Positions 3,250 to 20,559 of a stretch of DNA of 26,584 nt are shown here, in pieces. Under the pieces are notes generated by a model. That model searched no databases. It had not been told where the DNA came from and saw only the letters and a program-made list of their open reading frames with translations. Origin of the DNA: a virus. Within the stretch, counting starts at the first letter, position 1; the number at the start of each line of letters is the position of its first letter. The stretch spans positions 1 through 26,584 of IMG/VR virus record IMGVR_UViG_3300027805_000074; one strand, given 5' to 3'. A program made the position numbers and the translations under genes.

Positions 3250-3495
3250 ATGAAAATACGAATCACAAAAACGATCGAAATCAACGGAACAGCGTGGCAG
3301 CCCGGCTGGGTAGGCGGCTTTGACGAATCATTCGCGCGCGGACTAATTGCTGAAGGAAAGGCTGCCGAAGTGCCGGATGATGCGCGCACTTTCAAATTCG
3401 ATCCAACCGAAACAAAACTTACCGAGTGTATCCCCGAGCCGGGTGCAATCGAAGCGCAAACGCAAGCCAAGGAAGCATTGACTTTCAAAAAATAA
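3250..3495 (+). CDS. Small hypothetical protein before the tail tube gene
   Basis: Product of 81 residues from the ATG at 3250; an upstream in-frame ATG at 3190 lies inside the previous gene and is unlikely. The sequence begins MKIRITKTIEINGTAWQPGWVGGFDESFARGLIAEGKA and has a charged C-terminal half. The pattern G-x-x-x-x-PG...L-I-x-x-G-x-A resembles small phage proteins with a short beta fold found near tail tube genes, whose role is not established. It sits 4 bases after the terminator gene and 24 bases before the tube gene. Confidence 0.7.
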   Translation: MKIRITKTIEINGTAWQPGWVGGFDESFARGLIAEGKAAEVPDDARTFKFDPTETKLTECIPEPGAIEAQTQAKEALTFKK

Positions 3496-3519
3496 CGTTA
3501 ACGTCTAAATTTTCTATCT

Positions 3520-3939
3520 ATGCCGACCACAGGAACGGTTTTGGCCAAAAACATGGCTTTTTACACGGGCAGCACTACGCCTGTCCTCATCACCTGCCAG
3601 ACGAATGCAAGCCTTTCGCAGACAACCAACATGTTCGAAACAACGTGTAAGGATGCAGGCGCTTGGGGCGCTCAGCAACCGGGCGTAAAGAACTGGACTG
3701 CATCCGGTGAAGGATTGCTGGCTTTTTCTGCAACCAACGGCTACACGGTCTTGTGGGATGCCTGGAACAACCAGACGGCCGTCTCGATCGTATTTCAGAC
3801 CGGGGTAACCGGTGACACGAAATTCAGTGGAACCGGATACATCAGCTCGCTCGAACTGACCTCCAACGGCAACGACGAAGCCGTAACCTTCTCGTTCGAA
3901 ATCACCGGCAGCGGCGCGCTGGCAAAAGCAACGACCTAA
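3520..3939 (+). CDS. Major tail tube protein (TP901-1-like)
   Basis: Product of 139 residues. It has the make-up of a siphovirus tube subunit: N-terminal strand NMAFYTGSTTPVLITCQTNASLSQTTNMFETTCKDAG, then the NWTASGEGLL segment, a central helix, and GTGYISSLELTSNGNDEAVTFSFEITGSG at the C-terminus. The motifs W-x-x-S-x-x-G and G-x-G-x-I-x-S-L-x-x-x-x-x-x-x-E-x-x-x-F-x-x-x-x-x-G-x-G are common in the Phage_tail_2 family. It polymerises as hexameric rings around the tape measure protein. The next gene starts on its last base (TAATG), and is the tail assembly chaperone, as expected. Confidence 0.88.
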   Translation: MPTTGTVLAKNMAFYTGSTTPVLITCQTNASLSQTTNMFETTCKDAGAWGAQQPGVKNWTASGEGLLAFSATNGYTVLWDAWNNQTAVSIVFQTGVTGDTKFSGTGYISSLELTSNGNDEAVTFSFEITGSGALAKATT

Positions 3940-18627: not shown

Positions 18628-18655
18628 CAGACAGCCGGGAAAGACCGGCAATTAT

Positions 18656-18740
18656 TGCCCGGGGGCAGCCGGACTGGGGACAGCGGCAAATACAATAAGG
18701 ACATTGGGTATTAAATGCGGTTCGAATCCGCACCGGGCGC
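18656..18740 (+). tRNA. tRNA-like element with long body and non-canonical anticodon arm
   Basis: TGCCCGG (18656-18662) pairs with CCGGGCG (18733-18739), one wobble pair. A perfect T arm follows the tRNA plan: TGCGG (18716-18720), loop TTCGAAT, CCGCA (18728-18732), joined directly to the 3' acceptor strand. The 85-nt length fits a class II tRNA. A D-like arm GCCG/CGGC with loop GACTGGGGACAG is present, but the connector before it is 5 bases instead of 2, and I could not draw a normal anticodon arm; the discriminator is C. It may be degenerate or not an aminoacylated tRNA. Confidence 0.42.
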
Positions 18741-18795: not shown

Positions 18796-18859
18796 GGGGA
18801 AGTGGCGAAAGCGCAAAATGGTGATTTCGAGTGACCGGGTTCGATTCCCGGCTTCCTCA
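18796..18859 (+). tRNA. Short (64-nt) tRNA-like element, possible Thr anticodon GGT
   Basis: GGGGAAG (18796-18802) pairs with CTTCCTC (18852-18858) with one wobble. The T arm is perfect: CCGGG (18835-18839), loop TTCGATT, CCCGG (18847-18851). The discriminator is A and CCA is not encoded. The remaining 32 nt are too few for standard arms: a 3-bp mini D arm GCG/CGC (805-814) and a 3-bp anticodon stem AAA/TTT with loop ATGGTGA (18818-18824), which has T33 and would read GGT (Thr). A reduced, degenerate or mimic tRNA. Confidence 0.45.
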
Positions 18860-18879: not shown

Positions 18880-18928
18880 AGTTAGGGTAAGAACCCGGCA
18901 GCTCGTAAGAGTTGCCGGGGCCCTGACT
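18880..18928 (+). ncRNA. Long hairpin with GNRA tetraloop
   Basis: CCCGGCAGCTC (18894-18904) pairs with GAGTTGCCGGG (18909-18919), 11 bp with one G-U, capped by GTAA, a GNRA tetraloop. Outside it AGTTAGGG (18880-18887) pairs with CCCTGACT (18921-18928), 8 bp with one wobble, across a TAAGAA/G internal loop. It ends 16 bases before the start of the next gene and could be a leader element of that gene or part of a larger RNA. Confidence 0.6.
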
Positions 18929-18944
18929 GCAAAAACCACGTACT

Positions 18945-19283: not shown

Positions 19284-19534
19284 TTCATCGGAAATCCAAC
19301 GCAATCGAAATTCCCATGAGCGAAGTGCCGGATGAGCAGCGTATCTGCGATCACTGTGATACGCTTGCCGACGGTGTGCTATACCGCTGGTCGAAACCCA
19401 GCCAGGTGCCGAGGGCGCTCGGCGGGAAAGTGCGAAAACCGGAGGTATGTCTGTGCTTTTTGTGCAGCATCGCATACGGACGGACCATGGAAATAAACGG
19501 GTGGAAAAAAATAAATTGTGAAAAAAGTTTTTGA
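19280..19534 (+). CDS. Small Cys-rich, probable zinc-binding protein
   Basis: Product of 84 residues. Two cysteine groups are visible: CDHC near residues 23-26 and CLCFLC near 57-62, separated by a basic stretch (RWSKPSQVPRALGGKVRK). The spacing is compatible with one zinc ribbon. It starts in an ATGA overlap with the wHTH gene. Its stop codon (TGA 19532-19534) lies inside the 19-bp palindrome upstream of the next promoter. No named family recognised. Confidence 0.68.
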   Translation: MIHRKSNAIEIPMSEVPDEQRICDHCDTLADGVLYRWSKPSQVPRALGGKVRKPEVCLCFLCSIAYGRTMEINGWKKINCEKSF

Positions 19535-19557
19535 ATCTCAAAAACGATGTATATTTG
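19527..19557 (+). promoter_or_regulatory. Promoter of the replication operon with 19-bp palindromic operator
   Basis: TATATTTG (19550-19557) is a TAnnTTTG -7 box. Upstream, GTTTTTGA (19527-19534), ATC, TCAAAAAC (19538-19545) form a perfect palindrome with 8-base arms that covers the place of the -33 box; its TTTG lies 16 nt before the -7 box, somewhat closer than usual. A protein bound to the palindrome would block initiation. The predicted transcript start, about 19562-19565, coincides with the first paired base of the leader structure. Confidence 0.65.
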
Positions 19558-19561
19558 TCCC

Positions 19562-19758
19562 GCTAAAACATTATTGAAGGAGCCATATCAGGCTCCAAAT
19601 ATGGGGCCTTTTATTGCTCCCAGCAGCGTTGTATTCAAGATACGGCGGTCTGTCCTTACCGAGCTGGTTAGCCCAGCATGGCTCCTTCAAAGAGTGTTTT
19701 AGCAGCGGTATGTGGCAGGCCGTCTTTTTGTTTGCCACGGATTAAACAACGCTGCATT
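19562..19758 (+). promoter_or_regulatory. Structured 5' leader with alternative folds, upstream of the replication initiator
   Basis: Helix P1: GCTAAAACA (19562-19570) with TGTTTTAGC (19695-19703), continued by TTGAAGGAGCCAT (19574-19586) with ATGGCTCCTTCAA (19678-19690), 22 pairs with a small internal loop. Helix P2: GCAGCGTTGT (19623-19632) with ACAACGCTGC (19746-19755), ending 3 bases before the ATG at 19759, with ACGGC (19642-19646) and GCCGT (19719-19723) inside it. P1 and P2 interlock, so they form either a pseudoknot or two competing folds. Local arms GGAGCC (19579), GGCTCC (19591) and GGGGCC (19603, followed by TTTT) also allow a terminator/antiterminator choice. Confidence 0.65.
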
Positions 19759-20559
19759 ATGCAAGAACAAGATAAATCCAGTTGCTTTGCGATTATTCCG
19801 GCAGACGTGCGCTATTGCACCGTCATTCCTGACGGCGCCAAACTTCTCTTCGCCGAAATTACGGCGCTTTGTAATCGCGAAGGATACTGCTGGGCTTCAA
19901 ATTCTTATTTTTCTTCGTTGTATAACTGCTCAACTGATACTGTTAGTCGGTGGGTGAAATTATTGCAAGACAACGGGTTTTTGCATGTTGAAATTGATAA
20001 GTCAAAAGGTAATCAGCGCCGAATATACTTATCAGGGTGTATCCGCAAAAATGCCGATACCCTACCTGCAAAAATGCAGATAGGTACCAGCAAAAATGCG
20101 GATACCCTATCCGCAAAAATGCCTATAGCTATCCGCAAAAATGCCGAACAGAATAGTAAATATAATAATACAGAGAAAGATATTGTTATTGAAAGCAAAA
20201 ACCAATTTCAAAATTGGTTACTTTCAATAAAAACTGAAAACAGCACCCGCGAAGCTTTTTCGCTTTCTCGGAAAATCCCGATCGTCAATTTTGATGAGTA
20301 CTTTGAGGCATTTGCCCTCGAGGCAACCGCCAAAAGCGAAAGCTACCATACTCGGGCTTCTTTGCTTTCGCACTTTCTGAATTTCTCTTCTTCGAGACAT
20401 TACCGTTCGACGCAAAAATATTCCGGCGGCGCGCCTGGCCGATCGGCGGAGCCTGCTCGGCGCTTCGCTACCGAAACGGAAATTGCAGAGCCTCGGCACC
20501 GTATGGTGGTATCTGCAGACAGCGAAGGAATTAAGGAACCCAAATACCGTCCGATATGA
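19759..20559 (+). CDS. Replication initiator (replisome organiser) with origin inside the gene
   Basis: Product of 266 residues from the ATG at 19759; the earlier in-frame ATG at 19678 lies in the structured leader and gives an unrelated N-terminus. Residues about 8-85 are the winged-helix domain of phage replisome organisers: FAIIPADVRYCTVIPDGAKL, LFAEITALCNREGYCWASNS, YNCSTDTVSRWVKLLQDNGF. The middle is a 15-residue repeat (KNADTLPAKMQIGTS, KNADTLSAKMPIAIR) encoded by the iterons. The C-terminal part is low in recognisable motifs and may bind the helicase or its loader. It starts the replication operon and overlaps the next gene by four bases (ATGA). Confidence 0.85.
   Translation: MQEQDKSSCFAIIPADVRYCTVIPDGAKLLFAEITALCNREGYCWASNSYFSSLYNCSTDTVSRWVKLLQDNGFLHVEIDKSKGNQRRIYLSGCIRKNADTLPAKMQIGTSKNADTLSAKMPIAIRKNAEQNSKYNNTEKDIVIESKNQFQNWLLSIKTENSTREAFSLSRKIPIVNFDEYFEAFALEATAKSESYHTRASLLSHFLNFSSSRHYRSTQKYSGGAPGRSAEPARRFATETEIAEPRHRMVVSADSEGIKEPKYRPI
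20041..20230. other. Probable origin of replication: iterons, AT-rich DNA, inverted repeat
   Basis: GCAAAAATGC occurs five times at 20045, 20068, 20090, 20113 and 20135, spaced 23, 22, 23 and 22 bases, so all face the same side of the helix. An AT-rich stretch follows (about 20150-20200). Then TTATTGAAAG (20186-20195) and CTTTCAATAA (20221-20230), with AACCAATTT (20200-20208) and AAATTGGTT (20211-20219) nested inside, form a 45-base inverted repeat. Iterons, A+T-rich DNA and a palindrome inside the initiator gene match the known plan of the lambda O/ori region. Confidence 0.8.

Follow-up and report, generated by a model that had tools for sequence, protein, structure and literature searches.

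Interlocked structured leader before a phage replication initiator gene: a possible transcription attenuator

Which role can be ascribed to an extensively self-complementary stretch of some 200 bases that lies directly before the replication initiator gene of a phage? The question is raised by the 26,584-nucleotide window analysed here, namely the whole of a linear IMG/VR virus record of 26.6 kb. The record carries tail genes, a replication module and an integrase that contains a SAM-like domain, and its promoter style suggests a Bacteroidota host. The leader is placed between a small open reading frame (ORF) ending at 19534 and the gene of a 266-aa initiator, which matches HTH_36 (E = 2.6e-11) and PHROG replication initiation proteins (best E = 1.1e-19); phage HTH_36 initiators match DnaD-like PHROGs too. 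The initiator ATG (19759) is found 3-56 nt 3' of the leader's 3' elements, and a DnaB-type helicase is encoded two genes beyond the initiator. The five iterons internal to the initiator gene indicate that the replication origin is probably within it, and three copies of the same iteron are found at the same place in the initiator gene of the closest relative (L025, see below). The spacers of the iteron array (20045-20144) are palindromic, which makes the minus strand there the most over-folded stretch of the contig. The features discussed in the following are collected in the table.

Table. Positions of the leader elements and of the associated gene features in the window
Feature	Coordinates	Strand	Basis or remark
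Bacteroidota-type promoter: exact -7 box TATATTTG (19550-19557), weak -33 box TTTTTG (19528-19533)	19528-19557	+	consensus match
Rod 5' arm (a), includes GGAGCC (element 1)	19562-19586	+	fold, duplex energy
Antiterminator-like hairpin 1:2 (GGAGCC 19579-19584/GGCTCC 19591-19596), -12.1 kcal/mol	19578-19597	+	folding
Terminator-like T1: AGGCTCCA/TGGGGCCT stem (19590-19609), -12.0 kcal/mol, then TTTTATT	19590-19616	+	folding
33-codon upstream ORF (ATG 19601), spans rod interior and 3' rod arm	19601-19702	+	may be chance, p = 0.16
10-pair helix, 5' arm	19623-19632	+	perfect pairing
T2 5' arm (b), within rod loop	19644-19654	+	terminator-like pair
Rod 3' arm (a')	19678-19703	+	fold, duplex energy
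3' hairpin (19711-19720/19730-19739), holds b' and the T2 T-run, competes with T2	19711-19739	+	folding
T2 3' arm (b', 19714-19724) and T-run TTTTTGTTT (19725-19733)	19714-19733	+	terminator-like pair
10-pair helix, 3' arm, 3 nt 5' of start codon	19746-19755	+	perfect pairing
Replication initiator gene, led by the structure	19759-20559	+	HTH_36; PHROG replication initiation proteins
Five iterons GCAAAAATGC, spacing 22-23 nt, inside the initiator gene	20045-20144	+	likely origin

An earlier note, made from the letters alone, had proposed that the leader holds far more complementarity than expected in about 200 bases, and this was borne out by folding (all energies are from nearest-neighbour models at 37 °C). 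The leader RNA folds at -84.2 kcal/mol as compared with -55.3 kcal/mol in shuffles (z = -6.7; 0 of 200 shuffles), and the interlocked-stem score of 26, given by the rod and its interlocking partner, is matched by none of 1,500 shuffles (shuffle maximum, 24). Among 1,056 segments of 200 nt taken on both contig strands, 19551-19750(+) ranks second for folding excess, the first rank belonging to the iteron array on the minus strand. The rod itself consists of 24 pairs (11 + 13, separated by a 1x2 internal loop), 23 of them Watson-Crick, with a duplex energy of -34.7 kcal/mol; the helix had been placed correctly, but with a count of 22 pairs. The data support the presence of a non-random, cis-positioned structured element before the replication initiator.

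The minus strand of the leader is also over-folded (z = -4.6). Inverted repeats that fold on both strands, 290 nt upstream of origin-like iterons, might be part of an origin, a protein-binding site or a recombination remnant acting at the DNA level with no RNA role. Such an element is very improbable by taking into account that no iteron copy is present in the leader, that the sense strand surpasses the minus strand in folding excess (-29.0 vs -23.8), and that in the relatives described below T-runs follow the second arm on the sense strand.

Bacteroidota promoters conform to the consensus TTTG-N19-21-TAnnTTTG. From the exact -7 box before the leader a transcript start at approximately 19560-19563 is predicted, in agreement with the earlier statement that the long helix, whose 5' end is at 19562, begins at the predicted transcript start. 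The -33 TTTG is found only at a short 16-nt spacing or, if one mismatch is allowed, at 17-18 nt, so that the promoter, assigned by consensus alone, is plausible rather than proven.

Three small complementary elements, GGAGCC (element 1, 19579-19584), GGCTCC (element 2, 19591-19596) and GGGGCC (element 3, 19604-19609, followed by TTTT), had been read as offering an attenuator. All are where they had been located and carry a terminator-like flag in a scan, which by itself is not significant because two such sites were found against 0.9 expected. The elements give rise to two mutually exclusive hairpins, 1:2 and T1, that are isoenergetic in isolation (-12.1 vs -12.0 kcal/mol). By folding of successive prefixes of the transcript, hairpin 1:2 is complete at 41-47 nt and is the sole nascent-RNA hairpin until approximately nt 47; the equilibrium shifts from 1:2 to T1 at 53-59 nt, while TTTTATT, a modest U-tract, is being made; and the rod appears from approximately 131 nt, retaining the T1 stem inside.

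With a confidence that falls slightly short of even, we read the leader as a conditional cis-acting transcription attenuator in the 5' untranslated part of the initiator mRNA. Control of transcription rather than of translation is preferred because of the isoenergetic 1:2/T1 pair and of the T-runs in relatives. The nascent RNA would form hairpin 1:2 first. Upon emergence of element 3, T1 could displace it and halt transcription approximately 55 nt from the start, while persistence of 1:2 would let the polymerase go on. Thereafter the rod could arise by pairing of element 1 with the 3' arm; by parting b from b' of T2, the rod would favour read-through to the initiator gene with the iterons inside it. 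Termination, modulated by a trans-acting RNA, by a protein or by translation of the leader, would set the dose of initiator, and might thereby contribute to phage copy number. If real, such control would make it possible to test by simple reporter fusions when, and at what dose, the phage replicates following infection or induction.

Two further pairings interlock with the rod. The T2 state is approximately 11 kcal/mol less favourable in the window than the rod-bearing state, and therefore only T1 fits the simple attenuation scheme there; the rod remains the energy minimum, unlike in the relatives. The other pairing, a perfect 10-pair helix reported earlier as ending 3 nt before the start codon, is present exactly so. 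It would cover positions -13 to -4 of the initiator start, and it is not the energy minimum in the computed states: a nested structure that contains it lies 7.3 kcal/mol above the minimum, and a pseudoknot of rod and 10-pair helix was crudely estimated at -78.8 vs -84.1 kcal/mol, i.e. approximately 5 kcal/mol above the minimum, with a penalty of 9.6. In these models the pseudoknot could exist as a minor or induced state at most. Thus, of the cis-acting switch or pseudoknotted RNA initially suggested, the switch is retained, in the form of attenuator-type alternative pairings and of the same layout in the nearest relatives, but not the 10-pair helix as the default partner of the rod, which costs 7.3 kcal/mol.

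The initiator and the helicase as single queries against viral contigs returned no relatives; a profile of the initiator N-terminal domain yielded 206 usable upstream regions, 154 of them non-redundant. The closest relative found, L025, encodes an initiator that is 66% identical and a similar upstream gene (47% identity), and further close-relative searches gave L025 again or distant initiators only. Its leader has no detectable similarity to that of the window, and the two sequences are unalignable. Despite this, a promoter (its -7 box is exact, as read from the sequence), interlocked a-b-a'-b' arms, a T-run and the ATG follow one another: GCTATCA/TGATAGC is interlocked with AAAAAACGCCTGTAACGG/CCGTTACAGGCGTTTTTTT ahead of the ATG, and an 18-bp stem runs into seven T shortly 5' of it. 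The succession of promoter, a, b, a', b', T-rich tail and ATG was also found, in sequences that are unrelated, in L026, L030, L083 and L227 (initiator identities of 54%, approximately 50%, 41% and 52%, respectively), the promoters being sigma-70-like. T-runs end the leaders of L025, L026, L083 and L227; L091 has interlocked arms without a T-run. Before b' emerges, a:a' lies at the minimum or no more than 0.8 kcal/mol above it in L025, L026, L030, L083 and L227, and once b' has been transcribed b:b' is the minimum in all five, an energy order that is, as modelled, the signature of an early antiterminator and a later-winning terminator. Pairings, energies, order of formation, non-randomness and the similar layout before related initiators are in this respect direct results of the computation.

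Direct searches for the leader gave less. The leader DNA had no match in phages; the arm pattern GAAGGAGCC..GGCTCCTTC had 14 matches in viral contigs, approximately the chance number by estimate, none of them like the leader; matches to the L227 and L083 leaders were limited to the coding part, and the protein relatives of L227 are without the leader.

Recurrence was assessed on intergenic gaps of at least 80 nt in both groups, with an interlock score of at least 20 and other intergenic leaders of the same contigs as controls. Interlocked stems precede 13 of 60 members of the initiator family and 23 of 374 controls (odds ratio 4.2, p = 3.5e-4), by scoring criteria that were partly post hoc (set after viewing some relatives) and with several tests tried. 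After removal of the window and of four leaders seen beforehand, the enrichment is maintained (9/55, p = 0.013), and that of long-loop stems, which rests on the leaders seen beforehand, is lost (p = 0.62). In a strict test requiring interlocked stems and a T-run near the ATG, 4/154 initiators scored, as compared with 4/1,030 upstream regions used as controls and 10/3,080 shuffles. The majority of the initiator family is without such a leader. Recurrence of interlocked leaders before the family is supported, but moderate.

Two other structures were observed in related loci. In L040, a non-initiator gene approximately 300 nt 5' of the initiator has interlocked stems and a T-run before its start codon (3473-3693), and the layout may, judging from this sequence, not be limited to initiators. 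In L020 (Fusobacterium phage FNU4), a long hairpin (37-nt arms, 4-nt loop, from a gapless scan) lies upstream of 1483, immediately 5' of the initiator.

In the ColIb-P9 repY-repZ and R1 tap-repA systems, a leader peptide is combined with a pseudoknot. The phage leader resembles them in having interlocked complementary arms and an upstream ORF before an initiator, but it differs in that the pseudoknot is not favoured by energy and the upstream ORF of the window is not above chance. Leader ORFs in the relatives are of 25-43 codons in L026, L030 and L083 and of 6 codons in L025, with none in L227; only those of L030 and L083 are suggestive (p of approximately 0.03 each), and no conserved leader peptide was found. 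An in-frame N-terminal extension of the window initiator from ATG 19678 (27 codons) was set aside as too short to tell from chance. The 43-codon ORF of L083 (3874-4005) has a Shine-Dalgarno-like GAGGA, traverses the two interlocked stems and overlaps the start codon of the initiator, an arrangement that makes translational coupling to the initiator possible.

These ORFs bear on a translational switch, in which the leader would always be read through, and refolding of the rod, the 3' hairpin or the 10-pair helix would mask or free the last 15 nt ahead of the start codon, perhaps via translation of the 33-codon ORF as in pSK41 or ColIb-P9/R1-type leaders. Three observations would be consistent with it: the 10-pair helix is perfect and stops 3 nt short of the ATG, its 3' arm has a weaker local partner as well, and the upstream ORFs of the window, L026, L030 and L083 terminate within the interlocked arms or overlap them. 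A switch of this kind is nevertheless unlikely, the helix being unfavoured in every computed state, the length of the window ORF falling within chance (p = 0.16), and the T-run ends in four relatives pointing to transcription.

No described class was thought to match the leader when it was first noticed. Rfam 15 agrees, as neither the window nor 16 related loci gave a match at gathering score and the best E-value matches to the leader are at chance level, but initiator leaders controlled by RNA are well known in plasmids (PMC5703833, PMC4981023). In pT181 and pIP501, the leader of the initiator forms a terminator in response to an antisense RNA, and in pSK41, whose Rep resembles DnaD, an antisense RNA (RNAI) masks the ribosome site (PMC5703833, PMC4981023). 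For the family of the phage initiator, RNA control was not described in a limited search of the open-access literature, which gave plasmid precedents only. As with pT181 repC and pIP501 repR, the phage leader is long, structured and untranslated, precedes an initiator, and has mutually exclusive alternative pairings of which one is terminator-like with a T-run (1:2 vs T1; T2 vs rod), a terminator-like hairpin with a T-run being found shortly before the initiator start codon. It differs from them in that no antisense promoter was found and no Cop repressor identified, in its HTH_36 initiator (Rep_trans/PriCT_1 in the plasmids) and in its location in an integrase-bearing phage with a probable Bacteroidota host. 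Like the pSK41/pSK1 RepA_N leaders, which control initiators with a DnaD-like N-terminal domain, it lies ahead of an initiator with DnaD-like resemblance; ribosome-site masking together with an antisense RNA is the feature of those plasmids. The likeness of the phage leader to the plasmid leaders is one of layout.

A copy-number device of the pT181/pIP501 type, in which T1 or T2 would be triggered upon binding of a counter-transcribed RNA from the locus to the leader, would have the same place and the same logic. It would also account for a leader that diverges much faster than the gene while its layout persists, as for incompatibility-determining RNA targets; this faster turnover would be in keeping with a leader targeted by a cognate trans-acting RNA. 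However, allowing up to one mismatch, no Bacteroidota-type promoter was found on the minus strand of 19400-20000 or in L025, unusual promoter types being outside that scan. Weak reverse sigma-70-like sites near the gene start in L030 and L227 would suit the device, but they are at the chance level for AT-rich DNA. Because an antisense promoter was sought and not found, the leader is kept out of the pT181/pIP501 class, and such a device is considered decidedly unlikely.

The leader, with its own promoter, a rod fold and two terminator-like ends, might instead be a separate gene for a trans-acting small RNA that would be approximately 55 or 172 nt long and stop at T1 or T2, with the initiator as a leak-through neighbour. 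This is hardly probable, as its sequence is unconserved even in the nearest relative, it belongs to no Rfam family, and the position directly before an initiator recurs in relatives.

The attenuator reading can be extended to phages with HTH_36/DnaD-like initiators in general, which would share a recurrent and very fast-evolving cis-acting RNA attenuator that meters the initiator, and hence replication, with the layout (promoter, a, b, a', b', T-run, start codon) kept and the sequence not. The extension is doubtful as it stands; if true, it would provide a phage counterpart of the plasmid copy-control leaders, responding to a trigger of an undescribed kind, and, if real, a regulatory layout retained through sequence turnover and missed by homology-based RNA discovery.

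Elsewhere in the contig, two adjacent tRNA-like elements are found on the plus strand of a 317-nt intergenic gap. The first (18655-18740) folds into a cloverleaf whose acceptor has 7 bp and whose T arm (GGTTCGAATCC) is normal; the second (18796-18859) scores 29.9 bits with the Rfam tRNA model (threshold 29) and has a reduced D/anticodon region. Both may be degenerate or decoy tRNAs, since ARAGORN detects neither. Just 3' of the second element there is a GC-rich hairpin, aacccggcagctcgtaagagttgccggg, at 18890-18930, and the segment 18751-18950(+) ranks fourth in the contig for folding excess.
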